Shown piece by piece: positions 27,107 to 47,715 of a stretch of 64,000 nucleotides of DNA; position 1 is the stretch's first letter, and each line of letters starts with the position of its first letter. The notes under the pieces are model-generated. The model was given only the letters and a program-made list of their open reading frames with translations, was not told the origin of the DNA and did not search any database. Made by a program: the position numbers and the translations under genes. The DNA comes from Chitinophaga caeni (GTDB lineage: Bacteria; Bacteroidota; Bacteroidia; Chitinophagales; Chitinophagaceae): assembly GCF_002557795.1 (NCBI RefSeq), contig NZ_CP023777.1:4349001-4413000 (forward strand), read 5' to 3'.

Positions 27107-27513
27107 ATTAGCTATTCATCGGTAATAATAACGTGTCAAATTTTGAGATTTTCCAAGGAAAAGACTTTTTCATGTTCAGACTGATATTCCTCAGCATCGT
27201 TTTTGGTTAATTTTATCTTGAGTCTAACAATGGTAATGTGTAATTACTGTTGATAAAATCATGAATCCTAAATGGTTGAGGGCTGTTTTTTCAGCCCTCT
27301 ATTCATTTCCGCTCCTATTTCTTCATTTGGGTTATTAAACAAAAGAATATTTGATAGTTACAACAAGTCATGTATATCATTAAAAATAAATATTTAATAA
27401 ATTAAAAAAATAAAAATATAAAAATACCTCGAAAATATTCTCACCCTTTTTATGCAAAAAACACATCTATAATAAAGTAAAGAAACTAATGTTCGTGACC
27501 TTTTATTATTAAA

Positions 27514-28242: not shown

Positions 28243-28289
28243 ACATTGTTTGTATGACTTATTATCCAAAATCTAATTGAACTTTTTCC

Positions 28290-31064: not shown

Positions 31065-31069
31065 GCACC

Positions 31070-32242
31070 ATGGATAGGAAGCACCTACATAAGAACTGGA
31101 AAATGTATATAGCCGCGGTAGCGGCAACGGTTTGGTTACTGGCATACTGCCGCGATCCTTACGACCCCGGTATCAAGGGGCAAGACCTCGATTACCTGGT
31201 GGTGGATGGCATCATTACAACGGGGGAAGACACCACGGTCATCAAGCTATCGCGCAGCGTGCCGCTTTCCGAGGAGGTAAAAACGGTGCCCGAGAAGGGC
31301 GCCGCGGTGAGCATCGAGATCGAGGGCGCCGAAACTTACGGCTTGGCGGAGACGGCGCCGGGCGAGTATAAAGGTATTGCCACGAAACTGGCCGCCGGTC
31401 AAAATTGCCGCCTGGTCATCGCCACGGCAAATGGTAAGCATTACAAGTCGGCATCCGTGCCGGTACGGCGTACCCCGCCGATCGACAGCATCGGCATCTA
31501 CCGCTACCACGATGGTATGCAAACCTACGTGGATGCGAGCGATCCCTCGGGCGAAACCAGGTATTACCGCTGGAGCTACGAAGGCACTTACGAGTACCGT
31601 TCCCAGTACATCGCCTATATTTATTTCGACCGGACCGACAGCCTCATCAAGCAGAACGGCTACGATTATTACATCGAGCTGTACCGCTGCTGGCAGGAAG
31701 ATCCCAGCACGCAGCTTTTCGTGGCCACCTCCGAACAACTCGGCCAGGACGAAATCTACCATACCCCGCTGAAACTTTTCACCCACAACGATCCGCGTTT
31801 GGCTTGGGGCTATAGCATGCTGTTAAAACAGTATGCCCTCACGCCGCAAGCATATGACTATTACAAGAACTTGCGCGCCGTAACCGAGCAGCTCGGGGAC
31901 ATCTTCGGGCAATTGCCCAGCGAGCTGCGGGGAAATATCAGCTGCGATGAAGATCCCTCGGAAACGGTGATCGGTTTCATGTCGGCCGCCACGCTTAGCA
32001 AGAAAAGACAATTTTTTGGGCGGCCGGGCAACTGGACCTACCGGGAAGTTTGCGAGACGGCGGACACCGTAACAACTACTACAAAATTGGGGCGCTACCA
32101 GCACTTCTCAACCAGTAACGTGTTCCCCGTTTATATCAATAACGATGAACAGAAGAAAGAGCTCGGCAAGATCAGGAATTTCAATTGTATCGACTGCCGG
32201 AGCCAGGGCGGCACGAACGTAATGCCGGAGTTTTGGCCATAA
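31070..32242 (+). CDS. DUF4249 outer-membrane lipoprotein
   Basis: The 390-residue protein has a lipoprotein signal with Cys27 (VWLLAYCRDPYDP) and the DUF4249 pattern: YLVVDGIITTGEDTTVIKLSRS, a beta-rich domain with AGQNCRLVIATANGKHY, and C-terminal NFNCIDCRSQGG. DUF4249 proteins accompany TonB receptors in Bacteroidota in the way SusD accompanies SusC; they are thought to sit on the cell surface and help uptake. It starts 5 bp after the receptor stop and shares its GC-rich codon use. Function beyond this pairing is not known. Confidence 0.88.
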   Translation: MDRKHLHKNWKMYIAAVAATVWLLAYCRDPYDPGIKGQDLDYLVVDGIITTGEDTTVIKLSRSVPLSEEVKTVPEKGAAVSIEIEGAETYGLAETAPGEYKGIATKLAAGQNCRLVIATANGKHYKSASVPVRRTPPIDSIGIYRYHDGMQTYVDASDPSGETRYYRWSYEGTYEYRSQYIAYIYFDRTDSLIKQNGYDYYIELYRCWQEDPSTQLFVATSEQLGQDEIYHTPLKLFTHNDPRLAWGYSMLLKQYALTPQAYDYYKNLRAVTEQLGDIFGQLPSELRGNISCDEDPSETVIGFMSAATLSKKRQFFGRPGNWTYREVCETADTVTTTTKLGRYQHFSTSNVFPVYINNDEQKKELGKIRNFNCIDCRSQGGTNVMPEFWP

Positions 32243-32254
32243 TAATTTAATGCT

Positions 32255-33952: not shown

Positions 33953-33998
33953 TAGTGAAGATTGGTAATTATGTTCTTTCAGCGGAGCATAAATTTTG

Positions 33999-34031
33999 GC
34001 ACCTTGCACAAGGCAGGGTGCTATTTTTTTT
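33999..34031 (+). terminator. Intrinsic terminator of the TonB/DUF4249/MG2 operon
   Basis: Stem GCACCTTGC / GCAGGGTGC (8 of 9 pairs plus one G-T), 5-base loop, followed by TATTTTTTTT. It lies 47 bp after the stop at 33952. Confidence 0.8.
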
Positions 34032-34107
34032 GCTAGATAAATCTACCAAAATATATGTAATTTCATTAAGTTCATTTTATTTTAAAATCATCTCATTGTA
34101 TTAACCC

Positions 34108-34923
34108 ATGAAATACGCACTAGTTAACAATGCAAAATTAGAAGCAACTAAAGGCTCTAGAGGTATATGCCCATATTGTAGGGCTGAATTAATTGCGAAA
34201 TGTGGAGAATATAAAATACACCATTGGGCACATACATCAAAAGGAAATTGTGATCCTTGGTGGGAAAGGGAAACCGATTGGCATCGGTTATGGAAAGGTA
34301 ATTATCCGGAAAAATGGCAAGAAATAGTTTTTCGCGATTCTACATCCGGAGAAAAGCATATTGCGGACGTACAAACCGACCATGGACTAACAATTGAATT
34401 TCAACATTCGAATATTAATTCAGAAGAACGAAAGGCCAGGGAACAGTTTTACAAAAACTTGGTTTGGATTGTCGATGGGACTAGATTGAATTCAGATTTT
34501 CCACGTTTTTTACTTGGTAGTAAAAAATTCAAAAGTAGCGGAAAACAGGGATTATATTTTGTTGATCTATTAGATAAGAATTTCCCAATTAATTGGAAGG
34601 ATTGCGCTGTGCCGGTTATATTTGATTTTAAGGTGTTGAATGAATTAACTGGTAATGATAAATTTCGAGATAATTTGTATTGTTTATTTCCTGACAAAGT
34701 TAAACACTATAACATACTTGCAATCATCTCCCGTACAACTTTTATAGATTCAACCAAGAATGGAACATGGCTAAAGTGGTATTTAAATTTTGTTGGCAAA
34801 TCAAATGCTGGTTTAAAGGCAGATGAGCTAAGTCAAGAGAAACAGACGCCAAAGAAGGCCGTAAGGCCCCGTACAGCTGATATAATTGTAAAAGGTCGCT
34901 TTAAAAGACGAAGTAGGTTATAA
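34108..34923 (+). CDS. CoiA-like competence/nuclease family protein
   Basis: The 271-residue protein has a zinc-finger-like start (GICPYCRAELIAKCG, then HHWAH) and a PD-(D/E)XK nuclease-like core (HIADVQTDHGLTIEFQHS, in which D, E and Q are the expected catalytic positions, then ERKAREQFYKNLVWIVDG). This is the domain order of CoiA, a competence-induced protein of Gram-positive bacteria thought to act on incoming DNA. Stand-alone CoiA-like genes are scattered in Bacteroidota and on mobile elements. It is followed convergently by a histidine kinase after 48 bp; no link between them is evident. The C-terminus is lysine/arginine-rich (VKGRFKRRSRL), which would suit nucleic-acid binding. Confidence 0.78.
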   Translation: MKYALVNNAKLEATKGSRGICPYCRAELIAKCGEYKIHHWAHTSKGNCDPWWERETDWHRLWKGNYPEKWQEIVFRDSTSGEKHIADVQTDHGLTIEFQHSNINSEERKAREQFYKNLVWIVDGTRLNSDFPRFLLGSKKFKSSGKQGLYFVDLLDKNFPINWKDCAVPVIFDFKVLNELTGNDKFRDNLYCLFPDKVKHYNILAIISRTTFIDSTKNGTWLKWYLNFVGKSNAGLKADELSQEKQTPKKAVRPRTADIIVKGRFKRRSRL

Positions 34924-34971
34924 TTTGGAAAAATTAATTTAAAATAATATTATACATTTTTTACAAAAATA

Positions 34972-36633
34972 CTAGGCGGACGCTCTTTTCCCACGTAACT
35001 CATTATTGCAATATAATAAAATCAAATTTTCAACGTCTGATTTTAGGAACCCCTTCGTTAATATTTCAACTATACCATATTTCTTATAGTTTTTTAGTTG
35101 CAGATTTGAACCCGTTGTTATTACAATTGGAATGTTAGGGCACTTACTATGAAGGATTGAAAAATGCATGTCTGGCACTTCATCTGGCAAATGAAAATCC
35201 GAAAAAATTACATCAGGTGCAAAGTATTTAAGACTTTCCAATGCTTCTCGGCTAAGGTGGCATACTTTAACATTAAAACCTATATCTGTTAAAAATCTCT
35301 TTAGTAGGGCGGCATTCATAAAATCGTCATCTATTACCATTGCTTTCAAATCATTACTCATAGACATCTCAAGTGTATTTCCTAGATCAAACTGAGGAGG
35401 TTCGTTGGTCGAAGTTTTAATTGGCAGATTGATTAAAAAAGTTGTTCCGAAGCCCTCAACAGAGTTAACTTTAATCGAGCCACCCAATTGCTCTACGAAT
35501 TTCTTTGCTATTGTTAGGCCCAATCCAGTACCAGAAACTTGCGAGCCAATAGATTTATTGTAGGGTTCAAAGAGCTCGTTAATTTTCCGAAATGGAATCC
35601 CGATGCCCTGATCACTAACCTTAATAATCAGCTCAACACCTGTTATATTAATGATTAATTTAATAGCTTTATAAGGCTCGGTAAATTTTATAGCATTAAA
35701 TATTAAATTCTCAAGGATTGATGTAACCCTGTAAGTATCGATTTGTATTTGAACATCATTTGATCCAGTAATTTGGAAATTAAATTCAATTCCCTTTGCT
35801 TGGCAAGTTGAATGACTAATTTGATGAATTGTATTAAAATATGCAGTGCTTTCAACCCACGTTTTTTCATCTGCTTCAGGGATCCTATCACCGGGAATAT
35901 TGTTTACTAATAAATTGTCAATGTCCCTCTCAACTCGCCTTGTTAAATTTTCAATGTTATCAAATTCTTGATCGAATCCTGCAATTTGGTCCTTCAAAAT
36001 TTTTGAATACCCCCTGATCGAATGCATAGGCGCTCGGAGATCATGAACAAATTGCGATACAAGAAAATCTCGCTCCCTTTGAGCTAATTCAATACTCTTT
36101 CGTTGATTCAGCATAATTTTATGGAAATAAGCGAAAATAGGTAAATTTAAAAGTATAATTGTTGCTAAGGTAACCCAGCGGACAATGATAATACCAATTT
36201 CACTTTCGATAATTACAGGTTCAATAATTACATGGTTATTCCTATTAAATTCTATGAAAAAGAAGGCTATTCCTGCTAAAACAAAACTATAGATCCTAAA
36301 CCGGCGACTCGAACTTACTAATAATGATAATGTTAGTAGAAACAAGAACATTCCACTGAAGTCGATAACTTTTTCCATAACGATACCTAGATATGCGAAT
36401 GAAAGTGAATGAAGTGATTGTGAAAGATAAGCGCTTATAAGGTGTTTCCCATTTTCATTCAAAACTATAACTCCAACAAGAGCTAGCACTAAAAAGTATA
36501 GGAATACAAACTTGTGAGATCCGGTTGCTAAATAGAGGAATGTTCCATTAGACAAACACAACGCTATTGTAATGGCACTCATCGTTGTATTAAATGATGA
36601 TTCCTGGGATTCGTTGATCTGGGGCTTACACAT
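34972..36633 (-). CDS. Hybrid histidine kinase with receiver domain
   Basis: The 553-residue sensor has six or seven membrane helices in residues 15-175. A HisKA domain has its phosphorylatable His197 in FVHDLRAPMHS. The HATPase domain (NLIFNAIKFTEPYK, DQGIGIPF, GTGLGLTIAKKFVEQLGG) spans about 300-410. A C-terminal receiver domain has DDD near 432 and its phospho-acceptor Asp near 475 in IFSDFHLP. There is no periplasmic sensor domain, so the membrane bundle itself is the likely sensor. No output regulator gene is adjacent, so phosphate may pass to a distant partner. In CTnDOT the two-component pair RteA/RteB controls rteC; this kinase lacks a DNA-binding partner, so equating it with RteA would be speculation. 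Confidence 0.88.
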   Translation of the reverse strand: MCKPQINESQESSFNTTMSAITIALCLSNGTFLYLATGSHKFVFLYFLVLALVGVIVLNENGKHLISAYLSQSLHSLSFAYLGIVMEKVIDFSGMFLFLLTLSLLVSSSRRFRIYSFVLAGIAFFFIEFNRNNHVIIEPVIIESEIGIIIVRWVTLATIILLNLPIFAYFHKIMLNQRKSIELAQRERDFLVSQFVHDLRAPMHSIRGYSKILKDQIAGFDQEFDNIENLTRRVERDIDNLLVNNIPGDRIPEADEKTWVESTAYFNTIHQISHSTCQAKGIEFNFQITGSNDVQIQIDTYRVTSILENLIFNAIKFTEPYKAIKLIINITGVELIIKVSDQGIGIPFRKINELFEPYNKSIGSQVSGTGLGLTIAKKFVEQLGGSIKVNSVEGFGTTFLINLPIKTSTNEPPQFDLGNTLEMSMSNDLKAMVIDDDFMNAALLKRFLTDIGFNVKVCHLSREALESLKYFAPDVIFSDFHLPDEVPDMHFSILHSKCPNIPIVITTGSNLQLKNYKKYGIVEILTKGFLKSDVENLILLYCNNELRGKRASA

Positions 36634-37174
36634 ATACGCTTATTCTACATTAAGAAAATGGCTCAACATCCATTTAGAATGGAGCATATAACATATTCAA
36701 AATCGATTAGTACAGTACCTTCAAATTTCCAAGGAAACCCATACGAGAATCAGTTCCAGAAGAGTATTATGCTTTTGGACTGAACGCAAAAGGAACTCTA
36801 TACGAAAGTTGTTCGTACCGTTAACTAGGTTAGCCATGTAATGTGTAAGCGCTTTGGTATAGTGCTTGGCGAGAAAGAATAATTCAAATTCAGACGATAA
36901 TGCAATATTAAGATATTTCCCTGAAAACAAGCTTGTTTAATCTACGTTTTTTGAAAGTACATCCCATAATATACTGATAGAGGTAATTAAATAGAGTTAA
37001 CGACGAAATTTATTTTACCCCATTAAGTTGGCTATTGCTAGAAAGTGATATATACATCTAAGAAGGTTCCAATTCAATTATCACATGAAACAGTAGATAG
37101 TCAATAGTAAAGAGATATGTCTCATTAAATTAATTGTTTTATAACTTGATATATCGGGTTTATTTTACCGTATT
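36634..37174. other. Intergenic 540 bp, AT-rich
   Basis: Left part of the 800-bp gap between the kinase and the RepA-like gene. It should contain the kinase promoter. A 69-codon minus-strand frame at 36721-36930 shows only a faint resemblance to an IS66 transposase end and is not called a gene. Confidence 0.3.
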
Positions 37175-37390
37175 GTTCCGTTTGTTCCAATCATTGTTCC
37201 ACTTTTTGATCATACATTGTTGATTATTAGCCCTTTAGTGCCTTTTTATGTTCCGCCGCATTTTTGTGCGTTCCGTTTTTGTTCCATTTTCAGATTTTTT
37301 GTTCCGCTTTCCCGGATTGATTGATTGGCTTCCAGGGAGATAGCTTACTTTTTTGTTCCACTTTCGGCAGGAATGAAAATGGAACGGAAC
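37175..37390. repeat. Iteron-like array of GTTCC repeats next to RepA-like gene
   Basis: Eight direct copies of GTTCC begin at 37175, 37184, 37196, 37250, 37270, 37281, 37301 and 37355. Two inverted copies (GGAAC) lie at 37381 and 37386. Most fit the longer consensus TTGTTCCRYTTTC. Spacing is irregular. The array lies 44 bp past the end of the RepA-like ATPase gene. Iterated sites beside a Rep gene are the hallmark of plasmid and ICE replication origins, so this may be the element's oriV; a protein-binding control region is the alternative. Confidence 0.6.
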
Positions 37391-37433
37391 AGTATTTTTT
37401 TACCTCGGGGGAGACTTATCCCTGGCATCTACC

Positions 37434-38408
37434 TCATCTACCTTCAGCCAACTTCAGCCAACGGTGGATCGTGCTCTTGCCTTTACCCATGATATGGGCA
37501 ATCTCGTCCAGGGGCTTACCCTGGAGCCGCAGCGCCCGTGCAAAATCCTTTTGCTCGTCCTTATCCCGGAGCGCCCGGATGCCGACATGTTCCGCTTCGT
37601 TGACCTGTTCCTCCACCAATTCAAACCAGCAACTTCCAGGATGCATACGCAGCAGCTTCGCACCTTCAGCTTCCTCGAAGTGCCGGGACTTACCGCGTTT
37701 GAGAATGCGGAACTGCTTATCCTGCCCACTCTTTCGCAGGAAGAAATCACCGTCCGCCAGGTCGGTCTTGATGCCGGAACCGGCCTGTAGGTCGCTGTCG
37801 CTGAGTAGGGAGCCGCTGTGTTTCCTGAAATGATCGGTGATCAACACAGAGGTTTGGGTGCCTTCACAAAGCGCCAGTAGCGTGAACATGAGCCGGGTAA
37901 TGTCCTTGTTGTTATTGGTATCCACATCCGTGAATGCCATACGTAAGTTGTCGATGATGATAAGCACCGGTTTCAGTTTCTCCACGATGGCAACAATGTT
38001 GTGTAGCTCTTCAAGCAGGTTGCGGCGCGTGGAATATACCATCGCTTTATATTGTTCTCCTACCGGGAAGGGAACACTGTCCATCAACCGCTTGGAACGG
38101 CGCCGGATGATCTTTTCGCTCAACTCACTATTGATATACAAAGTATTTCCATGCATATTAATAGATTCCCCCAGGAAATCGGGCCACTCCCCGGCGATGG
38201 CAATACAGAGTTGCATACAGAACCAGGATTTTCCCACACCCCTGGGCGAAGGGAAATGGATGAGGCTGCCTTCCGGGATGTAATGGCCGAAAAGCTGCCG
38301 TAGCTCTTGCAGGTCGGCGCCTTCAAGGGCCAACTTGCGCATGCTCTTCAGGCTGGAACGGGAGTAAAATGAAACCTGGTCGGATAATTTGTACGTTGTA
38401 CCTGCCAT
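37434..38408 (-). CDS. RepA-like AAA ATPase with C-terminal HTH
   Basis: From ATG 38408 the protein has 324 residues, starting MAGTTYKLSDQ. The longer frame from 38486 adds a proline- and histidine-containing leader unlikely to be real. It is a RecA/RepA-fold ATPase: Walker A PSPRGVGKSW, Walker B LIIIDNLRMAF, then sensor-like LITDHFRKHSGS. A helix-turn-helix at the C-terminus (LDEIAHIMGKGKSTIHRWLK) resembles a resolvase-type HTH. Plasmid RepA of the RSF1010 type is a hexameric helicase with this core. Bacteroidota mobile elements usually carry such a gene behind an HTH gene, as here, often with a primase, which is not seen. It stands 5 bp after the small gene at 38414. Confidence 0.82.
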   Translation of the reverse strand: MAGTTYKLSDQVSFYSRSSLKSMRKLALEGADLQELRQLFGHYIPEGSLIHFPSPRGVGKSWFCMQLCIAIAGEWPDFLGESINMHGNTLYINSELSEKIIRRRSKRLMDSVPFPVGEQYKAMVYSTRRNLLEELHNIVAIVEKLKPVLIIIDNLRMAFTDVDTNNNKDITRLMFTLLALCEGTQTSVLITDHFRKHSGSLLSDSDLQAGSGIKTDLADGDFFLRKSGQDKQFRILKRGKSRHFEEAEGAKLLRMHPGSCWFELVEEQVNEAEHVGIRALRDKDEQKDFARALRLQGKPLDEIAHIMGKGKSTIHRWLKLAEGR

Positions 38409-38413
38409 TACTA

Positions 38414-38686
38414 TTATTGATGATTGGGAAATTGCAACCGTACCTTGATGTCGATGGACATCGGGCGTTGTTGCTGGTGGAGCCAAATCCAGTTAGTGGC
38501 GGCTACTTTCCAGTTACGTACAGGACATCCCTTTTCCGTTTTCCATTTGCGGGCCTGGTAGTAGCGAAAGAACCCTTCGGCTGCTTTCTCCGGAAGGCCT
38601 TTTTGGTCGAAGTAGATCTTTACATGCTGCAAGGATGGTGGCACGGTGCCGCCGCAGCCGTCATCCGATTTGATGGGCTTCTTCAT
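38414..38686 (-). CDS. Small element-borne protein upstream of RepA-like gene
   Basis: The 90-residue protein has a conserved-looking core, FFRYYQARKWKTEKGCPVRNW, followed by KVAATNWIW. This pattern (Y-A-GWK-GK--V-NWK-A---W) occurs in small proteins and protein tails of phages and Bacteroidota mobile elements and is thought to go with replication genes. Its ATG overlaps the TGA of the HTH gene (ATGA), and its stop lies 5 bp before the RepA-like start, so the three genes form a tight operon. The function is unknown. Confidence 0.68.
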   Translation of the reverse strand: MKKPIKSDDGCGGTVPPSLQHVKIYFDQKGLPEKAAEGFFRYYQARKWKTEKGCPVRNWKVAATNWIWLHQQQRPMSIDIKVRLQFPNHQ

Positions 38687-39021
38687 TTTTTATAGCTTTT
38701 GTGTTGGGAAAACTGATCCGGGGCGAGCATTTTGCTGATCTGTTCGTAGTCGTAGTACACGATGCCCCCGATCTTTTTATGAGGGAGGGTACCATCATTT
38801 CGCAGCCGCTGCAAGGTGCCTGGTGAGGCGTCCAGTAACTTACGGACCTCGCTGGTCTTCAACCATTTTTTTCCCGGCTGCCCTTGCTGCTCCCGGAGCA
38901 ACTTCCTGATCTCTTCCAGGAGTTCTAATTTAAGGTCTTGCAGATCGGCTAAGGTTACTATCTGGTTTGTATAGATATGATCTCTTTGGGTGAGATTGGA
39001 ACCCGCTGGTGGCGCTTTCAT
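38683..39021 (-). CDS. Helix-turn-helix protein of the Rep operon
   Basis: The 112-residue protein has a coiled-coil-like start (LADLQDLKLELLEEIRKLLREQ) and an HTH_17/MerR-type domain at about 52-98 (WLKTSEVRKLLDASPGTLQRL, then IGGIVYYDYEQI). Such genes open the replication/mobilisation operon of many Bacteroidota integrative elements and act as repressor or Xis. It is the second HTH protein of this type in the window (the other is at 10711). Upstream, at 39040-39136, lies one copy of a diverged direct repeat that could include its operator or promoter. Confidence 0.78.
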   Translation of the reverse strand: MKAPPAGSNLTQRDHIYTNQIVTLADLQDLKLELLEEIRKLLREQQGQPGKKWLKTSEVRKLLDASPGTLQRLRNDGTLPHKKIGGIVYYDYEQISKMLAPDQFSQHKSYKK

Positions 39022-39039
39022 ATAACACTCGATTTGTTA

Positions 39040-39136
39040 AGAGTGCAATTTGAAATGTTTGAAACGGGTTAAAGGGTAGGTGGACGTAATGGGGTCGAAA
39101 AAGCAAGTATTCTAATTCGTAAGAACTAGAATGAAG
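39040..39136 (+). repeat. Diverged direct repeat, left copy
   Basis: About 97 bp here align with 45844-45938 in the same orientation. Exact shared blocks are TGTTTGAAACGGGTTAAAG, TATTCTAATT and AAGAACTAGAATGAAG; the parts between are similar but changed. The copy lies between the HTH gene and the end of the XRE-S24 gene. The two copies bracket the repressor-imuA-imuB-dnaE2 cassette. Confidence 0.65.
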
Positions 39137-39198
39137 TTAACTATGGTTACTTTAATTCGACGACGGATTAATATCAACCCTATCGTTGACACATAAGT

Positions 39199-40002
39199 TT
39201 ACCTCCTCCCTTTGATCACCTTGATTTCCGCCTGCACCTCCCGGATAAGTGTTGCAATACTTTGCATATCCTGCGCCTCCGGCACTTCCACGGTATGATA
39301 GCTATGGAAGCGCCACAGTTCCAGTACCTCGGAGAAAGGAACGGTGTAGGGCTGGTAGCTTTTATTCATGGATTCCATTAGTAAACCATCTCCTTTTAGC
39401 GTTACCTGCTTGAATACAAAATCCTGCTCACCCTTCAGGATAGCCACGCAGAGGGTTTGAGGTTTGATATCCCGCCAGTCTTCCAGGTACTGGCCGATCA
39501 CATCACAGCCATCCGGGAAAGGCAACATGGAATCTCCTGTTATCGTGAACATCCGGTACGTTTTCCCTTTCGGCAGTGAAGGAAAACTGAAGCGCGGTAA
39601 ACCGGCGATAAACTCCGGGTCGCGGTGACCGGCTATATAGCCGGCCTTGGCCTTTACCGGCACATATTCCAGGTTTTCCTTGCTCGTCTTATCCACTGTC
39701 ATCGCCAGCACCCGCATATTGCTGCCCGTGATATACACATCATTGCCTGCCTCCAGTTGCCGCAGGCTCAGCTCTGAGAGGCTGGAAAGGTCAATTTTAA
39801 ACAGCGAGTCCACGCTGATCTTGAAATATTCCGAGATATTCAAAAAATCTTCCGGCAAGGGTGATTTAGTCTGGCCGCTTTCCAGGGCGGCCAGCTTGGA
39901 GCGTTTGATGCCCAATATATTAGCCAGCTCTTCCTGGCTTTTATGCTTGCGCTCCCGGAGGAATTTCAGGTTCCCGCAGAAAAATATTTTTTGTGTCTTC
40001 AT
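39199..40002 (-). CDS. XRE-S24 (LexA-like) self-cleaving repressor
   Basis: The 267-residue protein joins an N-terminal XRE helix-turn-helix (10-65, LKFLRERKHKSQEELANILG) to an S24 peptidase domain. The cleavage site looks like Ala120-Gly121 (KAKAGYIAG), the nucleophile Ser158 (GDSM) and the general base Lys198 (VFKQV). It is therefore a LexA/CI-like protein that should cleave itself when RecA is activated by DNA damage, releasing its operators. It is transcribed away from imuA with 68 bp between, holding two palindromes it probably binds. At 267 residues it is longer than E. coli LexA (202); it is closer to phage-type repressors. The C-terminal 40 residues form a charged helical tail. Confidence 0.87.
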   Translation of the reverse strand: MKTQKIFFCGNLKFLRERKHKSQEELANILGIKRSKLAALESGQTKSPLPEDFLNISEYFKISVDSLFKIDLSSLSELSLRQLEAGNDVYITGSNMRVLAMTVDKTSKENLEYVPVKAKAGYIAGHRDPEFIAGLPRFSFPSLPKGKTYRMFTITGDSMLPFPDGCDVIGQYLEDWRDIKPQTLCVAILKGEQDFVFKQVTLKGDGLLMESMNKSYQPYTVPFSEVLELWRFHSYHTVEVPEAQDMQSIATLIREVQAEIKVIKGRR

Positions 40003-40008
40003 TTTTCG

Positions 40009-40027
40009 TTGCTATTATTGATAACAA
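40009..40027. promoter_or_regulatory. Operator-like palindrome O1 (imperfect)
   Basis: Half-sites TTGCTATTA and TGATAACAA match as inverted repeats at 7 of 9 positions around a central T. The site resembles O2, with centres 23 bp apart (about two helical turns), and lies immediately upstream of the repressor start codon. Confidence 0.6.
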
Positions 40028-40030
40028 TAC

Positions 40031-40051
40031 TTTGTCATTATTAATGACAAA
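40031..40051. promoter_or_regulatory. Operator-like palindrome O2 (perfect)
   Basis: Half-site TTTGTCATTA, one central T, then its exact complement: a perfect 21-bp inverted repeat. It overlaps a TATATTTG box on the minus strand (40048-40055) that fits the Bacteroidota -7 consensus for the repressor gene. On the plus strand a TACTTTG sequence (40028-40034) is placed for imuA. Binding here would repress both directions. Confidence 0.75.
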
Positions 40052-40070
40052 TATAAACCAATAAATTGAA

Positions 40071-40808
40071 GTGGCGATGGAAATAGCGGAGACAAAAAAA
40101 TCAATTATAGAAAAGCTGCAGCGGCAGATACTGGAGCTGCAAGGCATACGCGATACCGGGACTTCTAAAGTTAAGGGCCTGGGCGAAGTGGAAAAAGCGT
40201 TCCCAAACGGTACTTTTCCCACCGGGGTCATCCACGAATTTACCAGCAATGAATACGGGGGTTACGTGGCCACCCACGGCTTTATCGCCGCACTGCTGGG
40301 CAAGCTGATGGCGCAAGGCGGCCCCTGCCTTTGGGTAAGCCGCAATCGCCGGGCCGCACCAGGGGGATTGGCGGCCTTCGGTATCCCGCCTGAGCGGGTC
40401 ATTTTTATCGATCTCGACCGTGACAAAGACCTCCTCTGGACCATAGAGGAGGCGCTTAAATGTCCCGGTTTATCCGCTGTCGTCGGAGAGGTCGGCAACC
40501 TCGACTTCAATGCCTCCCGCCGGCTACAACTGGCCGTGGAGGAAAGCCGCGTGACGGGCTTTATCCATTGCTGCCGCCCGGCCTACCTGCAGCAGACCAC
40601 CAGTGTCGCCCGTTGGCGGATAGCTCCCCTGCCTAGCTGGCTGCCGGATGGTATGCCCGGTATTGGACATCCTTGCTGGCGGGTGGAACTACTCAAGGTC
40701 CGAAGTGGCAAACCTGGTACCTGGGATATCCAATATGCCGCCGGGCAACTACGACACCTGGACCGACAATCGGTAACAGCAGCAACATACCTTGAAAACG
40801 CGGGATAA
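40071..40808 (+). CDS. imuA: ImuA, RecA-like component of mutasome
   Basis: The 245-residue protein (or 243 from ATG 40077; GTG 40071 is the longer start) has a RecA/SulA-like fold: FPTGVIHEFTSNEYGGYVATHGFIAALLGKLM, LWVSRNRRAAPGGLAAFG, and VVGEVGNLDFNASRRLQLA. ImuA works with ImuB and the polymerase DnaE2 (ImuC) in error-prone lesion bypass after DNA damage, possibly modulating RecA. There is no strict Walker A motif, as often in ImuA. It is the first gene of the cassette, right behind the S24 operators; imuB starts 1 bp after its stop. The C-terminus is short. Confidence 0.87.
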   Translation: MAMEIAETKKSIIEKLQRQILELQGIRDTGTSKVKGLGEVEKAFPNGTFPTGVIHEFTSNEYGGYVATHGFIAALLGKLMAQGGPCLWVSRNRRAAPGGLAAFGIPPERVIFIDLDRDKDLLWTIEEALKCPGLSAVVGEVGNLDFNASRRLQLAVEESRVTGFIHCCRPAYLQQTTSVARWRIAPLPSWLPDGMPGIGHPCWRVELLKVRSGKPGTWDIQYAAGQLRHLDRQSVTAATYLENAG

Positions 40809-40809
40809 G

Positions 40810-42306
40810 ATGGAACGCTACCTATCTATATGGTTTCCCCGACTTTTGACAGACTGGAAGGAGAGGCACGAGCCGAACCTGAAGGGGAAGGCTTTCGTTT
40901 TGGCCGAACTGGAACGCGGTCGCAAGGTCATCCGGGCAGTCAGCGCAGCAGCACAACCATATGGCATCCGTTACGGCACTGTCGTCGCAGATGCCCGGGC
41001 AGCCTATCCCTCCCTGTTGGTTTATGACTACGATCCCGACCAATCCTTAATCCTGCTAGGCAACATTGCCGAATGGTGTATCCATTATAGCCCTGTAGTT
41101 GGGGTTGACAGCCCAGATGGCCTGGTACTGGATATAAGTGGTTGCACCCATCTCTGGGGCGGGGAAATACCTTACCTGGAAAAGATCACGGGCAAGTTCA
41201 AAACCACCGGTTACAGCGTCCAGGGAGCTATAGCCGATACCATAGGGGCTGCCTGGGCACAGGCCCGGTACGGAAACAGCCCGTTCATCATCCCTCCGGG
41301 CAGGCAGCGGGAAGCGCTTTTAGCCCTGCCACCGGCAGCATTGCGCCTGGAGCCGGGACTCCTGAACCGGATGCGGAAGCTGGGCTTTTACCAGGTGGGC
41401 AATTTTATATCCATCCCCAGGGGCACACTTCGGCGCCGTTTCGGCCAACAGCTACTGGATCGCCTGGCACAAGCCCTGGGGGAAGCCCGCGAAGCCTTGA
41501 CCCCTGTAATACCAGTGGCACCATACCAGGAGCACCTGCCGAGCCTGGAGCCGATCCAAAGCGCCGCTGGTATTGAAATTGCTCTGCAACGTCTTCTGGA
41601 AACCCTGTGCCGACGACTGTTCCGCGAGGGGGTAGGCCTGCGCAAAGCCGTGCTGACCGTTTACAGGATCGATGGAAAAAAGCAACAGTTAGAGATCGGT
41701 ACCAACAGGCCGTCTCGCCATACAGCGCACCTCCTGAAGCTTTTCAAGCTAAAGACCCAGGCCATCGCCCCCGGCCTGGGCATCGAGTTGTTCGTGCTGG
41801 AAGCGCCGGTAGTGGAAGAACTCACCCAGACCACCGAAACCCTCTGGAAATGCCATGACCCGGCGGATGAAGAGGCGGTAGCCGACTTGCTCGACCGCAT
41901 GGCGGGGCGGTTGGGCGCGTCGGCAATCCGGCGCTACCTGCCCCAGGAACACTACTGGCCAGAACGGGCAACCCGGCCGGCAGCTTCCCTTTCCGAGCCC
42001 TGTACTACCGGTTGGCGGAGCCATGTGCCCAGGCCGGTATGTCTCCTGGCGGTGCCCCTGGCAATAGAGGTCATGGTGCCGCTGCCGGACTACCCACCCA
42101 TACAGTTCCGCTACCGGGGAACCTGGCACAAGGTAAAGAAGGCGGATGGGCCTGAACGGATTGAACAGGAATGGTGGATGCAACAAGGCGACCACCGGGA
42201 CTATTACTGCGTGGAAGATGAACCAGGGCGGCGCTACTGGATCTTCCGGTTGGGACTTTACGGGAAAGACACTCCGGAATGGTTCCTGCACGGATTTTTT
42301 GCATGA
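40810..42306 (+). CDS. imuB: ImuB, inactive Y-family polymerase of mutasome
   Basis: From ATG 40810 the protein (498 residues, MERYLSIWFPRLL) starts 1 bp after the imuA stop; a TTG start at 40792 is less likely. The fold is that of Y-family polymerases, but the first catalytic aspartate is missing: the usual IDMDAF region reads LSIWFPRLLTD. The second metal site (normally S-x-D-E) reads VLDISGCTHLWGG. This is typical of ImuB, which does not polymerise but bridges DnaE2 and the sliding clamp. Helix-hairpin-helix (LGFYQVGNFISIPRGTL) and little-finger regions follow. A GC-rich sequence like its neighbours shows one source for the cassette. Confidence 0.88.
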   Translation: MERYLSIWFPRLLTDWKERHEPNLKGKAFVLAELERGRKVIRAVSAAAQPYGIRYGTVVADARAAYPSLLVYDYDPDQSLILLGNIAEWCIHYSPVVGVDSPDGLVLDISGCTHLWGGEIPYLEKITGKFKTTGYSVQGAIADTIGAAWAQARYGNSPFIIPPGRQREALLALPPAALRLEPGLLNRMRKLGFYQVGNFISIPRGTLRRRFGQQLLDRLAQALGEAREALTPVIPVAPYQEHLPSLEPIQSAAGIEIALQRLLETLCRRLFREGVGLRKAVLTVYRIDGKKQQLEIGTNRPSRHTAHLLKLFKLKTQAIAPGLGIELFVLEAPVVEELTQTTETLWKCHDPADEEAVADLLDRMAGRLGASAIRRYLPQEHYWPERATRPAASLSEPCTTGWRSHVPRPVCLLAVPLAIEVMVPLPDYPPIQFRYRGTWHKVKKADGPERIEQEWWMQQGDHRDYYCVEDEPGRRYWIFRLGLYGKDTPEWFLHGFFA

Positions 42307-42321
42307 ATAAAGACAATACTG

Positions 42322-45300
42322 ATGCACTATACGGAATTACAAGTAACGACGAATTTCAGCTTTCTGCGTGGCGGCTCACACCCGGAGGAACTGGTGGCTC
42401 AAGCCGCGGAATTAGGATATGATGCCCTAGCCATAACGGACCATAATACCCTTGCCGGCATCGTGCGGGCGCATGCCGCCGCCAGGGAGAAGAATATCAG
42501 GATTATTCCCGGCTGTAGGCTTGATCTGCAGGACGGCCCTTCCCTGCTGGCATACCCGACCGACAAAGCCGCCTACGCCCGCCTTTCAGGCCTGCTCACA
42601 GTAGGCAACTTCCGCACTGAAAAGGGCAACTGTCTGCTTTACAAATCCGATGTGTATCGGTACCGCGAAGGCCTGCTTTTCATCGTTATTCCCCCGGACA
42701 GCTTGAACCTGTACTTTGATTTTGAAGAAACATTTAAGGCGGCTTTGCGTGAGTACCGGCAGGTGCTGGGTCAGTGCCTTTACCTGGGGATGATGCGCTC
42801 TTACCAGGCCGATGACACGAAACGCTTGTTCCGCCTCTCCCAACTGGCAAAGGACCTGGATGTCCCCCTGATAGCGACCAACGATATTCACTATCATGAA
42901 CGGGAGCGCCGGGAGTTGCAGGATATTTTAACCTGCATCCGCGAGAAATGCACGATATACAATGCCGGCTTCCGATTGTTTCAGAATGCAGAACGCTATA
43001 TGAAACCGGAGCCTGAAATGCTGCGCCTGTTCCGCCAAAACCCGGATGCCATTGCCCGTACCGGGGAAATTGCAGCGGCCTGCCGCTTCTCCCTGGATAG
43101 CCTGGAATATGTTTATCCCGAAGAGATCACCGGCGGCGACAGGACGCCCCAGGAGGAGCTGGCTTTGCTGACCTGGCAAGGTGCGCGGGAGCGCTATGGC
43201 GGGCAGGTGCCGGAAGCGGTATGCAAGGCGATCGATGAAGAGCTCGCTTTTATAAGCAAGAAGAATTATGCAGCTTATTTCCTGACGGTTCATGACCTCG
43301 TGTGTTTCGCCCGCTCCCGGCAAATTCTTTGCCAGGGACGTGGCTCGGCGGCGAACTCTGCGGTCTGTTACTGTTTGGGGATTACATCCGTAGATCCGGT
43401 AAAATTCAAGCTACTTTTTGCCCGTTTCATGAGTGATGCCCGGGATGAGCCGCCAGACATCGACGTGGACTTCGAGCATGAGCGGCGCGAAGAAGTCATG
43501 CAATATATCTACGGCAAGTACGGCCGTGACCGAGCTGGTATAGTGGCCACCGTAACTCGGGTACATTGGAAGGGAGCAATTCGGGATGTGGGTAAGGCTA
43601 TGGGTCTTTCCGTTGATGCGGTAGACAGACTTTCAAAGTCCGGCTACGAACTTACCACCGAATGGCTGGAAGGGAAAGCCTCCTCCTCGGAAGGCTTTGA
43701 CCCGGGCGACCCGCACCTGCTTAAAGTATTGGAACTAACACAGCAGTACATCGGATTTCCCCGGCAGCTAGGTCAACATACTGGTGGCTTTGTGATCACC
43801 CAGGGCAAGCTCTCCGACCTCTGCCCGGTGCTCAATGCCCGTATGGAAAACCGGAGCAATATCGAATGGAACAAAGATGATATAGAAGCCCTCGGTTTCC
43901 TGAAGGTAGATGTGCTGGCCCTAGGAATGCTGACCTGCATCCGCAAGGCCTTTGACCTGGCCCAGCAGCATTACGGGCTGGAATTGACGCTGGCCAGTAT
44001 CCCGCAGGATGATCCGGCAGTGTATACCATGATCAGCCATGCCGATACCCTGGGTGTTTTTCAGATTGAGAGCCGGGCCCAGATGTCGATGCTGCCCCGG
44101 TTGCGCCCAAAATGCTTTTACGACCTGGTAATAGAAGTTGCTATCGTAAGGCCCGGCCCCATCCAGGGTGATATGGTACATCCTTACCTGCGCCGCCGTA
44201 ATGGTGAGGAACCGGTGGAATATCCTTCAAAGGAACTGGAGGACATCCTGGGCCGAACACTCGGTGTCCCGCTCTTCCAGGAACAGGCCATGGAGATCGC
44301 TATTGTAGCCGCAGGCTTTACCCCGGCGGAGGCAGACGGGCTGCGCCGGAGCATGGCCACTTTTAAGGCTAAAGGAAAGGTGAGCGATTGGGAGAAGAAG
44401 CTAGTAGAGGGTATGATTGCCAAAGGATACAAAGAAGATTTTGCCCGACGTGTGTTCCGGCAACTGGAAGGCTTCGGCAGCTACGGCTTCCCGGAAAGCC
44501 ATGCGGCTAGCTTCGCCTTGCTGGTCTATGTCTCTTCCTGGCTGAAGTGCTATTACCCTGATGTTTTCGCGGCGGCGCTGCTTAACAGCATGCCGATGGG
44601 TTTTTACCAGCCGGCCCAGATCGTCATAGATGCGCAGAAGCACGGCGTTAGCGTGCTGCCGGTGGACGTGAACCTGTCCACATGGGATCATAGATTGGAT
44701 GAGCGTAAGGGAAAGTATTACCCGCTGCGCCTCGGCCTGCGCCAGGTCAAAGGCCTAAAGGAAGAAGAAATGCAGTTGCTGGTCTCCAAAAGACAAAGCC
44801 CTTACCACAGCATCAATGAGCTTTGCGATGCCGGAGTCGGGATGGCCGCCCTGGAGAAACTGGCTGATGCAGATGCTTTCCGATCCCTGGGGCTGGACCG
44901 CCGGCAGGCCTTATGGGATGTTACAGCACTCTGCGATCATCCTACAGGCTTATTTGAAGGGCAGCCTTCCGGCAGTTCTCACGAAAAAGCAACCCTGCTG
45001 CCTGCAATGTCGGCGCCGGAGCATGTCCTACAGGATTATAGTGCTTTATCCTTATCACTGAAAGCCCATCCCGTCAGCTTCGTACGTAGGCAGCTTTATC
45101 ACCAGGGTATATTACCAACAAATGAACTGAATCTCTGGCCGGACGGTACCATGGTAAAAGTTGCGGGATTGGTATTGGTCCGGCAACGCCCGGCGACCGC
45201 TACGGGCGTATGTTTTATCACTATAGAAGATGAAACCGGTACCAGTAATCTTGTGATCTTTCAAAAACTATTCGATAAATACCGCAAGGAGATTGTCCGT

Positions 45301-45552
45301 TCTACTTTGCTGATGGTTGAAGGTAAGCTGCAACGGGCAGGGGAAGTGACACATGTAATCGTCAAGAGTTGCCATGACCTATCAGGGTTGCTCAGCGAAC
45401 TCAATATTCCGACCCTTGCTATACCGGATGTTCAAACCTTATCCCGCGCTGATGAAGGCAAGGATACTGATTATGAAGGTAGTGATAAGCATGTGAAGAA
45501 ACCAGCGGTGGTGCAAGGAGAGATATTTCCAGGGGGAAGAAACTTCAAATAA
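42322..45552 (+). CDS. dnaE2: DnaE2 (ImuC) error-prone DNA polymerase III alpha subunit
   Basis: The 1076-residue C-family polymerase has the PHP domain (YTELQVTTNFSFLRGGSHPE, ALAITDHNTLAG), the palm with catalytic PPDIDVDFEHERRE (about 375-390), the DnaE2 hallmark GVFQIESRAQMSMLPRL, helix-hairpin-helix (PESHAASFALLVYVSSWLKCYYP) and a C-terminal OB fold (MVKVAGLVLVRQRPATATGVCF). It lacks the tau-binding tail of replicative DnaE1, as expected for DnaE2. It is the SOS polymerase of the ImuA-ImuB-DnaE2 mutasome, which bypasses lesions at the cost of mutations. It follows imuB by 15 bp. The last 40 residues are acidic and then lysine-rich (HVKKPAVVQGEIFPGGRNFK). Confidence 0.95.
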   Translation: MHYTELQVTTNFSFLRGGSHPEELVAQAAELGYDALAITDHNTLAGIVRAHAAAREKNIRIIPGCRLDLQDGPSLLAYPTDKAAYARLSGLLTVGNFRTEKGNCLLYKSDVYRYREGLLFIVIPPDSLNLYFDFEETFKAALREYRQVLGQCLYLGMMRSYQADDTKRLFRLSQLAKDLDVPLIATNDIHYHERERRELQDILTCIREKCTIYNAGFRLFQNAERYMKPEPEMLRLFRQNPDAIARTGEIAAACRFSLDSLEYVYPEEITGGDRTPQEELALLTWQGARERYGGQVPEAVCKAIDEELAFISKKNYAAYFLTVHDLVCFARSRQILCQGRGSAANSAVCYCLGITSVDPVKFKLLFARFMSDARDEPPDIDVDFEHERREEVMQYIYGKYGRDRAGIVATVTRVHWKGAIRDVGKAMGLSVDAVDRLSKSGYELTTEWLEGKASSSEGFDPGDPHLLKVLELTQQYIGFPRQLGQHTGGFVITQGKLSDLCPVLNARMENRSNIEWNKDDIEALGFLKVDVLALGMLTCIRKAFDLAQQHYGLELTLASIPQDDPAVYTMISHADTLGVFQIESRAQMSMLPRLRPKCFYDLVIEVAIVRPGPIQGDMVHPYLRRRNGEEPVEYPSKELEDILGRTLGVPLFQEQAMEIAIVAAGFTPAEADGLRRSMATFKAKGKVSDWEKKLVEGMIAKGYKEDFARRVFRQLEGFGSYGFPESHAASFALLVYVSSWLKCYYPDVFAAALLNSMPMGFYQPAQIVIDAQKHGVSVLPVDVNLSTWDHRLDERKGKYYPLRLGLRQVKGLKEEEMQLLVSKRQSPYHSINELCDAGVGMAALEKLADADAFRSLGLDRRQALWDVTALCDHPTGLFEGQPSGSSHEKATLLPAMSAPEHVLQDYSALSLSLKAHPVSFVRRQLYHQGILPTNELNLWPDGTMVKVAGLVLVRQRPATATGVCFITIEDETGTSNLVIFQKLFDKYRKEIVRSTLLMVEGKLQRAGEVTHVIVKSCHDLSGLLSELNIPTLAIPDVQTLSRADEGKDTDYEGSDKHVKKPAVVQGEIFPGGRNFK

Positions 45553-46134
45553 TGATTGTTGAGGCTTAATTAACAGTACAAAATAGAACAAACTCCCTAT
45601 AAATCTACCCAAGGAATGGCAATTACACTTTCAATATTTTTGAATTCTGGATAAGCGGTTGGTTGACAGTTACCACCAGTTTGTTGATTGCTGAACTATT
45701 CTCTTTTGAGGTTCCCTATATCCCCGCTAAACTTGGCAGCTACTATATCAGCATAAATTTGGGTTATAGATATGTTGGTATGTCTCATTATTTTACAAGA
45801 AATTCTTTCGGCATACCATTGGAAAGCTTAACAGTTCTCTCAAAAGTGCTATTCGAATTGTTTGAAACGGGTTAAAGTAATGGTAGAAGTATTGGGGGTT
45901 GGAAAAGTGTATTCTAATTTAGAAGAACTAGAATGAAGCCAATGGGCAAATTCAGGTTAAAGTTTAATTTCTGGACCTTATTATTTCGAGAAATAATAAT
46001 CAGTAATGAAGGTGATTTACAACCCAAACAACTATGCCTTATTGAGTTAACCCAAAGAAGTGAATATTGGATATAAATACGAGTAAAGCCAATTTAAGTT
46101 CTTCAAGTAAACGGGAAATGGCTCCCAACCATTC
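45553..46134. other. Intergenic 582 bp between dnaE2 and integrase
   Basis: Contains the right copy of the diverged direct repeat (45844-45938). A 70-codon plus-strand frame at 45663-45875 overlaps the repeat and matches nothing I know. No transcription terminator with T-run is seen after dnaE2. Confidence 0.35.
45844..45938 (+). repeat. Diverged direct repeat, right copy
   Basis: About 95 bp matching 39040-39136 in the same orientation, with exact blocks TGTTTGAAACGGGTTAAAG, TATTCTAATT and AGAACTAGAATGAAG. It follows dnaE2 and closes the bracket around the mutasome cassette. Confidence 0.65.
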
Positions 46135-47406
46135 TTACACCGCTGGTATTCTAAGCTTTCCTCCTTCATCGAAAAGCTCATCCTTAAGTCCATTCATTTC
46201 CCTGGCCATTCTCTTCTTTTTGATTCTGGCGTAGCGCTGAGTAGTCCTGATGGACCTGTGGCCGAGCATGGTCTGTACCACCTCCAGGGAAATACCTTGT
46301 TCCAAAGCTATAGTAGTAGCGAAAGTGTGACGGAAAACATGGGTCGTCAATTTCTTTTTGATACCGCACAAATCGGCTATTTCTTTCAGGTAGCCATTAT
46401 ACCGGGAGTTGCTGTTGATCGGCAGTAATGTGCCTCGTTGCCGGCAGTAGGGGTGATCGGTATATTTTTCGATCAGGGCGGCGGCAATGGGCAGCACAGG
46501 CAGCAACTCTTTCTCACCGGTCTTGCCCCTGGGCTTCTTCAGCCATTTTTCTCCGTTTACAGTGATATAATGCTCCGGCCCCAGGGCATAAATGTCCTGG
46601 TAGGCAAAGCCGGTAAAGCATTGGAATATGGAAGCGTCCCTTACCTCTACCAGCCTGTCAATCGTCAGCTCTTTATTGTAGATAGCCAGCACTTCATCCA
46701 TTTCTAGCTCTTCTATGCCCGGGTCCTCGTAGGTGCAAACAAATTCTTCCATAGGATTATTAAGAAGCCAGCCTTTACGCTTGGCCATCTTCAGTACCTG
46801 CTTCGTGTCTTTTACTAGTTTCATGGCGGTATTGTTGGCTAAATCCTGTTCGATCATTAAAAAATCCAACAGGTCGTCAGCAACCGAAACAGGAAGTTGC
46901 CGCAGCAGGACATTCTCTTTTTTGAACTGATGTTTTATAAACACCTTGATCTTATTTCTGTTGCTGTTCCACTTACGCAAAGTTTCGCCAGAACGTTTCT
47001 TTATCTTTACAAGTTTCTCAAAACGGGTGATAAAATAGTCGAAGGCTTCCAGGAAGGAAACTTCCTCTATGGGGTCAACTGGGATGGCAGGCCGCCCTTC
47101 GTAAAGGTTCTTCACCATTTCCGGGGTGACGTATTGATATTGGGCTTGTAAAGCGGTGAAATGCCGGTCAAGATCGACTTCTGCCTGGCTGATCTTCCTG
47201 TTAATGATCTTTACCTCCGGGTCTTTTCCTAATACCTGTTTGTTTTTTTCATCCCAATTATCGGGATGCACTTTGCGGCTTAACGATATTTCTGCCTTTC
47301 TACCGTCAATGGTTACACGAATATAGATCGGGGCTTTGCCGTCTTCGGATCTTCTGGCAACGCTTCGTTTAAGCCAAAACAGGATGGAGATATCTTGCTT
47401 GCTCAT
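46135..47406 (-). CDS. int: Tyrosine recombinase (integrase) of the element
   Basis: The 423-residue integrase has an N-terminal arm-binding region (LFWLKRSVARRSEDGKAPIY), a SAM-like core-binding domain (about 110-215) and a catalytic domain. Visible catalytic residues are Lys in KPRGKTGEKELLPV, the HxxR pair in HVFRHTFATT (near 355), His in MLGHRSIRTTQ and nucleophile Tyr near 392 (TTQRYARI). The first arginine of the family box is absent: the box reads CFTGFAYQDIYAL where most recombinases have TGLR. This loss is known in CTnDOT-type and many other Bacteroidota integrases. It lies 237 bp from tRNA-Lys, facing away from it, a standard arrangement for elements that use a tRNA 3' end as attachment site. 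Confidence 0.92.
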   Translation of the reverse strand: MSKQDISILFWLKRSVARRSEDGKAPIYIRVTIDGRKAEISLSRKVHPDNWDEKNKQVLGKDPEVKIINRKISQAEVDLDRHFTALQAQYQYVTPEMVKNLYEGRPAIPVDPIEEVSFLEAFDYFITRFEKLVKIKKRSGETLRKWNSNRNKIKVFIKHQFKKENVLLRQLPVSVADDLLDFLMIEQDLANNTAMKLVKDTKQVLKMAKRKGWLLNNPMEEFVCTYEDPGIEELEMDEVLAIYNKELTIDRLVEVRDASIFQCFTGFAYQDIYALGPEHYITVNGEKWLKKPRGKTGEKELLPVLPIAAALIEKYTDHPYCRQRGTLLPINSNSRYNGYLKEIADLCGIKKKLTTHVFRHTFATTIALEQGISLEVVQTMLGHRSIRTTQRYARIKKKRMAREMNGLKDELFDEGGKLRIPAV

Positions 47407-47490
47407 AGCTACTTGTTTTTATGATGGTTAAGAATGAAATCATTTGAAATTCTTTGTGTTTTTTCAAGTGTTTCAAACTGCCATCACACA

Positions 47491-47544
47491 TTCGGTTACC
47501 TAAAGTTGAGGTTTTTGCGTGGTAACCGAACAGGTAACCGAACA
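47491..47544. repeat. Integrase arm-type site candidates (GGTAACCGAA)
   Basis: Two tandem copies of the 12-mer GGTAACCGAACA (47521-47532 and 47533-47544) and one inverted 10-bp copy (TTCGGTTACC, 47491-47500) lie just upstream of the integrase start. Short direct and inverted repeats at an attachment end are typical binding sites for the integrase arm domain. They could also be an operator for int. Confidence 0.5.
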
Positions 47545-47611
47545 GGTAGCTATAAACTGATTTTCTTTGATATGCAATTTTTCGCAAAGCCGCTACAGCG
47601 GCATATATAAA

Positions 47612-47641
47612 CGAAAAAAGGCATTCCTTAGAATGCCTTTC
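47612..47641 (-). terminator. Intrinsic terminator of tRNA-Lys
   Basis: On the minus strand, 2 bases after the tRNA end, a perfect 10-bp stem (AAAGGCATTC and complement) with a 4-base loop is followed by six T. The tRNA transcript therefore ends before the integrase region. Confidence 0.85.
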
Positions 47642-47642
47642 G

Positions 47643-47715
47643 TGATCCCGCTGGGACTCGAACCCAGGGCCCATACATTAAAAGTGTATTGCTCTACCAA
47701 CTGAGCTACGGAATC
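47643..47715 (-). tRNA. tRNA-Lys (anticodon TTT)
   Basis: The cloverleaf is complete: acceptor GATTCCG / CGGGATC, D arm GCTC...GAGC, anticodon stem ATACA / TGTAT with loop CTTTTAA (anticodon TTT), T arm CTGGG-TTCGAGT-CCCAG, discriminator A. CCA is not encoded. Its 3' end faces the integrase, so it is the likely attachment site of the element. Confidence 0.95.

Follow-up and report, generated by a model that had tools for sequence, protein, structure and literature searches.

The window analysed here is a 64,000-nucleotide stretch of Chitinophaga caeni (C1:4349001-4413000, C1 being the single 5.28-Mb contig of the genome), and it contains an imuA-imuB-dnaE2 mutasome cassette that is divergent from the gene of a CI-like XRE-S24 repressor. 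We propose, at a probability of about 0.7, that this block is a self-contained, RecA-triggered mutasome under private repression, carried as cargo in the slot between the integrase and HTH_17 genes of a CTnDOT-type conjugative element. In the undamaged cell, the repressor would bind the 68-bp divergent promoter at a private 19-bp operator and at a second, weaker site, and so keep down its own gene together with imuA-imuB-dnaE2. Upon DNA damage, the host RecA filament would stimulate the repressor to cleave itself at A120-G121; the repressor level would drop, ImuA, ImuB and DnaE2 would be made, and lesions would be copied with errors. Since the switch shares no box with the host SOS regulator, the module should need host RecA and the sliding clamp, not an SOS motif. 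The sequences show the anatomy, the element boundaries with the empty site, the conserved cleavage residues, the missing host box, the rarity of the operator and its covariation with the recognition helix; the mechanism built on them is likely, with binding, RecA cleavage, induction, mutagenesis and transfer as its inferred steps.

Coordinates without a C1 or L prefix are window positions, and L and G labels stand for relatives' loci and genomes. An earlier note on this DNA had described the repressor with its A120-G121 cleavage site and Ser158/Lys198 dyad, the divergent cassette and a tyrosine integrase beside tRNA-Lys; all of these parts and residues are where it had put them. The cassette and its promoter are as follows:

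39199..40002, minus strand: XRE-S24 (CI-like) repressor, 267 amino acids, with A120-G121 and S158/K198 (profiles, alignment, predicted fold)
40009..40027, unstranded: second, weaker operator-like dyad, TTGCTAT-TATTG-ATAACAA (predicted)
40032..40050, unstranded: primary operator-like dyad, TTGTCAT-TATTA-ATGACAA (predicted)
40071..40808, plus strand: imuA-like gene, Walker A motif not found (below the ImuA cut-off; annotated ImuA homologue)
40810..42306, plus strand: imuB, Y-family, catalytic acidic residues absent (Pfam IMS, DinB alignment)
42322..45552, plus strand: dnaE2, error-prone C-family polymerase (profile match)

A probable private operator that covaries with the recognition helix

The repressor gene and imuA are separated by the divergent promoter at 40003-40070. 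For comparison, we used contigs with DnaE2, the best 80 of at least 531 relatives (the first set), 70 of which have readable imuA surroundings. A divergent XRE-S24 gene adjoins imuA in 41 of these 70 loci. Passages of PMC8565304 describe CI-like XRE-S24 proteins as the LexA equivalents of Bacteroidota; the pairing itself is therefore not odd, and the earlier note made too much of it. A whole set is also borne by a Dyadobacter plasmid.

A dyad of the form TTG-N4-N5-N4-CAA reaches a score of at least 7 in 35 of the 42 self-repressed promoters (shuffles: mean 1.8, most 5) and of at least 8 in 29 of them (shuffle mean 0.15, most 2), and its offset is 39-40 in 29 of the 35. The inner bases of the dyad vary by group, tracking repressor residues 33, 35, 38 and 44; the recognition helix of the repressor model comprises residues 34-42. 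Across 40 primary operators, operator and helix are correlated at a partial Mantel r of 0.45 given C-terminal distance (permutation p 2e-4), a test from which shared ancestry is only partly removed, and none of 1000 random seven-residue sets from the C-terminal domain correlated as well. Particular helix residues go with particular left half-sites, SNQSK with TTGTTGC (7/7), TTKTA with TTGGCAT (4/4) and KSASQ with TTGTCAT (2/2).

Three sites in the genome match with at most one mismatch; those at window 143-161 and C1:84503 lie within long reading frames, which leaves the operator as the only one outside such frames. Allowing three mismatches gives seven sites in the element, roughly as many as the count over the whole genome would predict; one of them is some 120 bp upstream of a conjugation-region frame of 209 aa. 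Taken together, the private dyad, its covariation with the helix and the rarity of the operator make it very probable that the switch is private, as the earlier note had supposed.

SetR of SXT/R391 and ImmR of ICEBs1 are immunity and transfer switches, and the repressor could be one too, with the mutasome merely adjacent to it and DNA damage mainly triggering excision and transfer. It does share the element with the integrase, 6 kb away, and its helix-turn-helix (HTH) profile matches the ICEBs1 regulator among others, being CI-like and not winged. However, a scan of the whole element at up to one mismatch found, apart from the operator, only the site at 143-161 inside a frame, and nothing operator-like near the int, HTH_17 or tra genes. 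In addition, the repressor stays with imuA in 41 of 70 loci, whereas integrase-type genes are near only 4 of 80 cassettes (tyrosine recombinases by profile; at least one gene like those of this element is near 6 of 80), and repressor and DnaE2 distances correlate (r 0.63, with 0 of 2000 permutations as high). We consider an immunity switch improbable, and the earlier note's further suggestion, that this repressor might link DNA damage to excision or transfer as well, was rejected.

Absence of the host SOS box from self-repressed cassettes

According to passages of PMC8565304, the SOS box in wide use across Bacteroidota, the Chitinophagaceae among them, is CTAA-N5-TTAG. The genome studied here has two such boxes at its resident S24 regulator and two at its dinB-dnaE operon. 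In the first set, the box occurs within 250 bp upstream of imuA in 0 of 41 self-repressed cassettes versus 12 of the 29 others (Fisher 5e-6), 10 of which have it within 90 bp. The second set comprises 40 Chitinophaga cassettes, four of them known to overlap the first set, and here the separation is complete: the box lies within 250 bp in all 32 cassettes that lack a repressor of their own (in 29 of them within 90 bp), and all eight with their own repressor have the private 19-bp dyad and no box (p 1.3e-8, or 1.7e-5 minus the four overlapping loci).

This bears on the possibility that the cassette answers to the host SOS regulator or to some other factor, the neighbouring repressor not being its controller. 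Candidates for such a role exist, since the genome has a resident S24 regulator and an orphan XRE-S24 gene (L095:2317-3054, C1:4010 kb) that is 46% identical to the repressor and has no cassette nearby, and some cassettes elsewhere have neither box nor dyad. Against this, the CTAA box is absent upstream of the window's imuA, and the dyad stands at a fixed place between the divergent genes and covaries with the recognition helix of the neighbouring repressor; control from outside is thus improbable as well. The orphan gene was also considered as a private repressor left behind, and this was set aside, as no dyad lies upstream of it.

Several observations weigh against a privately wired, imported cassette. 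The same five helix residues, TVAAR, go with several half-sites, and the control for ancestry in the covariation test is partial. The element has no CTAA box, but about one would be expected by chance, which makes this weak evidence; genome-wide, the boxes are no commoner than a reversed control (63 versus 120), so that the evidence lies in the placing of the box before imuA and not in box number. Among the 29 unaccompanied cassettes of the first set, eight lack the box and have a dyad score of at least 7, and nine have neither, which confines the clean dichotomy to the genus. Two of the 32 host-wired genus promoters reach a dyad score of 8 and 13 reach 7, because the score rewards any dyad. 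The ImuA product has ImuA as its best NCBIfam model at 58.6 bits, under the cut-off of 150. Finally, the GC content at third codon positions (GC3) of dnaE2 equals that of the flanking host genes, and base composition was accordingly dropped as a sign of recent arrival.

Private-type dyads were seen in the unaccompanied cassettes L068, L072, L073, L080, L081, L086, L018 and L028. With such dyads and no adjacent repressor, the repressor of these cassettes, if any, must be elsewhere.

The repressor and mutasome proteins

The repressor exceeds the cut-offs of HTH_19, HTH_3 and Peptidase_S24. In an alignment of 42 repressors, G121, S158 and K198 are invariant and A120 is conserved in 40. Its predicted fold (mean predicted local distance difference test score, pLDDT, 75) resembles lambda repressor and LexA, the LexA C-terminal domain fitting the model at about 2.7-2.9 Å across some 90 columns. 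The extra C-terminal helix of published S24 regulator models is also present, at residues 246-266 (mean pLDDT 75). A phage-type HTH joined to an S24 domain with an Ala-Gly site and a Ser-Lys dyad is what characterizes the non-canonical LexA of Bacteroidetes. The own-promoter motif of that group is represented here by the diverged N5 dyad, with the CTAA box absent; a multi-gene SOS regulon is not seen, as one operator-like site with at most one mismatch lies outside long frames. The single site implies that the repressor would work like LexA on one promoter pair, and it counts as a relative, not as the SOS regulator of the genome. A search for the repressor in phages gave one partial match, from an Elizabethkingia phage that also has genes like MuA and MuB.

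The dnaE2 product scores 1370.9 bits against a cut-off of 939 with NCBIfam PRK05672, error-prone DNA polymerase. ImuB matches the Pfam IMS domain; aligned with the genome's DinB, it is missing the N-terminal Asp residues and has Gly in place of the Glu of the Asp-Glu pair, from which it is predicted to be a catalytically dead Y-family protein. Judged by eye, its start is likelier ATG at 40810 than TTG at 40792. The Pfam search of the ImuA product gave no match, and the name imuA rests on position and on an annotated plasmid homologue.

The earlier note had raised the matter of a second lexA and a second dnaE2 in the genome. A resident S24 regulator is there, as described above, and no second DnaE2 of this kind, the window's copy being the sole one; a dinB-dnaE operon stands apart from it, at about 159-163 kb, as does DnaE1, at 4.426 Mb. 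A 121-bp fragment (L096:9594-9714, C1 about 3399.6 kb), 88% identical to dnaE2 (window 44807-44922) and beside a broken integrase frame, is by this resemblance a remnant of another cassette.

The carrier element and its empty site

The surroundings of the cassette are those of an integrated element:

1..47664, unstranded: the window's share of the 82.9-kb conjugative element, about 35 kb more of which lies further left
37434..38486, minus strand: AAA_25 (RepA-like) ATPase (profile match)
38683..39021, minus strand: HTH_17 protein, excisionase-like by position (profile match)
39039..39136, unstranded: direct repeat copy 1, upstream of the HTH_17 gene (repeat search)
45842..45938, unstranded: direct repeat copy 2, between dnaE2 and the integrase (repeat search)
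46135..47406, minus strand: tyrosine integrase with Arm-DNA-bind_5, SAM_5 and Phage_integrase (profile matches)
47642..47715, minus strand: tRNA-Lys (TTT), attachment site, with a 23-bp core at 47642-47664 (tRNA finder)

The 20-mer at the 3' end of this tRNA-Lys has four copies in the genome, three inside whole tRNA-Lys genes; the fourth, at C1:4313788 with one mismatch, belongs to a bare 23-bp core that lies outside the window at C1:4313784. From the window's tRNA-Lys to this bare core, the attachment (att) cores are 82.9 kb apart. Between them, TraJ, TraK, TraM and TraN all exceed their NCBIfam cut-offs, and the element also encodes TraG, a relaxase and a YWFCY coupling protein, in addition to a ParA-like protein, a group II intron frame, a topoisomerase, DUF4099/DUF3945 and a large methylase-helicase.

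The SDR gene to the right of tRNA-Lys is present in 55 of 60 genus genomes, its own included. Among 29 relatives' loci, tRNA-Lys stands beside the SDR gene in 22, with a similar integrase within about 1.3 kb in five. The left flank of attL lies directly beyond that tRNA-Lys in seven relatives, none of which has an integrase there; the best matches are 89% over 141 bp in L219 and 82% over 161 bp in L214, and two of the seven span only 51 bp. We read this as the empty site. A cassette at this site without the integrase, which the earlier note had named as the case against mobility, was not seen in the 10 single-contig genus genomes having both dnaE2 and the SDR gene beside tRNA-Lys, where the two are at least about 197 kb apart. 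With TraJ, TraK, TraM and TraN, the relaxase, coupling protein and TraG, and an integrase with att sites and an empty site, the element has the marks of the CTnDOT type, and the block is, on this gene content, cargo of an 82.9-kb CTnDOT-type conjugative element in a tRNA-Lys gene. The carriage of the cassette by a mobile element, as the earlier note had it, is therefore borne out.

A second integrase of this kind, 45% identical, is found in the same genome beside another tRNA-Lys (L144:13986-15236, C1:4856.9 kb). The element is also a strong mosaic in base composition: the GC content of window 1-37000 ranges from about 0.30 to 0.58, and its low-GC part contains SusC/D, FecR and sigma-factor sets.

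The slot between integrase and HTH_17

The block sits between the integrase and the HTH_17 and AAA_25 genes. This gene pair is the 'Rep-type operon' of the earlier note. We examined three related elements with AAA_25 and HTH_17 genes. In L235, which is at tRNA-Pro, the slot is empty, with 187 bp between HTH_17 and int. In the second, a sister element (L233:5051-10577, G291, at tRNA-Arg), the slot is filled by dinB, a 978-aa dnaE and an exonuclease/GIY-YIG gene, and the only two CTAA-N5-TTAG boxes of the 19-kb locus are both ahead of its dinB. In the third (L236:7443-11374, G030), whose contig stops before any integrase, an IrrE-type peptidase, a sigma-like frame, and multiubiquitin and DUF6791/ThiF proteins stand beside HTH_17 and look like a ubiquitin-like defence set. 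The AAA_25 protein has few relatives: counting its own genome each time, 6 genomes out of 294 in the family contain one at E 1e-25, and 2 out of 395 in the class at E 1e-40. Plasmids gave one weak match and viral contigs none.

Imperfect direct repeats (80% over 99 columns) bracket the block; like the two operator-like dyads, they are additions to what the earlier note had listed. I read them as possible insertion traces. They were tried as the ends of a known unit and rejected, as the genome has no other full copy and none lies around the sister element's cargo. A 70-bp repeat pair of unrelated sequence (L149:4318-4387 and L149:6776-6845) surrounds cargo just after the integrase of a related element, L149; the repeats of both contain an inner palindrome, in L149 by eye.

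Evolutionary history of the cassette

In a tree of 82 DnaE2 proteins, the window's DnaE2 is not among the other Chitinophaga sequences and groups with four from Sphingobacteriaceae, all self-repressed; the support is modest (Shimodaira-Hasegawa-like approximate likelihood ratio test, SH-aLRT, 88, not a starred branch). The presence or absence of an own repressor requires 10 changes on the tree, eight of them forced by starred branches, versus 22.7 in shuffles. These changes, together with the correlation of repressor and DnaE2 distances, suggest that the repressor tends to travel with its cassette and that host and private wiring replaced each other repeatedly.

That the block is decayed or stationary chromosomal DNA, with an immobile element and a cassette ordinary for the genus, fits the DnaE2 relatives in 43 of 60 Chitinophaga genomes, a traG frame of 696 aa (L093:256-4704, C1:4329256-4333704) apparently shortened beside the group II intron maturase frame, and the host-like GC3 of dnaE2, but is very improbable, considering that att cores and an empty site enclose the cassette, that its nearest DnaE2 relatives are, at that modest support, outside the genus, that a sister element with an empty slot exists, that a second self-repressed cassette adjoins TraK, TraM and TraN in Dyadobacter psychrotolerans (L030), and that present immobility would leave the switch unchanged.

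Discussion

Several parts of this arrangement have known counterparts. The repressor resembles the non-canonical LexA of Bacteroidetes in its CI-like HTH with S24, its Ala-Gly and Ser-Lys residues and its N5-spaced own-promoter dyads, as passages of PMC8565304 describe them. The same passages report an S24 regulator of Elizabethkingia anophelis that is encoded opposite an error-prone polymerase gene and binds its own diverged palindrome; mitomycin C induces the regulator and polymerase genes alike. These regulators are tied there to chromosomal regulons, whereas the present cassette is on a conjugative element; those passages describe neither carriage by such elements, nor exclusion of the host box at imuABC, nor covariation of operator and helix. 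Cassettes with their own LexA-type repressor, lexA2-imuA-imuB-imuC of Pseudomonas and lexA-imuY-imuC of Deinococcus deserti, are reported in part of PMC3901139; there the operon itself begins with LexA, unlike the divergent repressor with CI-like HTH found here on an integrated element.

Mobility of such genes also has precedents. An imuABC set lies near one end of the integrative conjugative element ICEPni2 of Pseudomonas nitroreducens; this is a gammaproteobacterial element, for which the relevant passages of PMC7466150 cite SOS control in general and mention no own repressor. The imuA2B2C2 genes of plasmid pRalta, which lift the recipient's mutant frequency about 15 times, are mobile like those of the window, but have a recipient-type LexA box and are LexA-dependent, with no own repressor described in the corresponding passages of PMC4151985. 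The change in a recipient's mutation rate that the earlier note foresaw from carriage is thereby shown for another element, and for the one in the window it would be a prediction. DnaE2 on plasmids had already been noted, as excerpts of PMC3919608 attest.

The SXT/R391 elements bear rumAB, damage-inducible polymerase genes of the Pol V type that are under host LexA, with a separate CI-like transfer repressor. They are likewise element-borne and damage-inducible, and differ from the present cassette, which would be controlled by its own repressor. Among openly licensed PMC papers, we found none that reports the exclusion rule or an imuABC set with its own repressor on a conjugative element of Bacteroidota. 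The wiring is the new part, in which an own repressor goes with loss of the host box and the operator follows the recognition helix.

We tentatively suggest a bolder possibility, of a portable SOS response, about which we are more doubtful than confident. A self-repressed imuABC may need only the RecA and clamp of a Bacteroidota host, and its own operator code would let it cross between hosts with different SOS motifs. Because helix and operator change together, co-resident modules could be insulated from the host and from each other; the wiring would have switched many times, and the slot of this element family would carry unrelated damage-inducible polymerases. Two genomes have two self-repressed cassettes each with clearly different operators (L030/L049 and L036/L082). 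The paired cassettes of two other genomes (L060/L074 and L054/L055) have alike or similar operators, which counts against it; this, together with the absence of the box from the element not being significant, slightly lowers its odds.

Whether transferred mutator genes need the recipient's SOS wiring or bring their own bears on how far mobile elements can raise mutation rates in recipients that are new to them. The rule is directly testable, as one genus offers 32 host-wired and eight self-wired cassettes besides that of the window. If the wiring is indeed private, a new host could receive its mutation programme ready-made.

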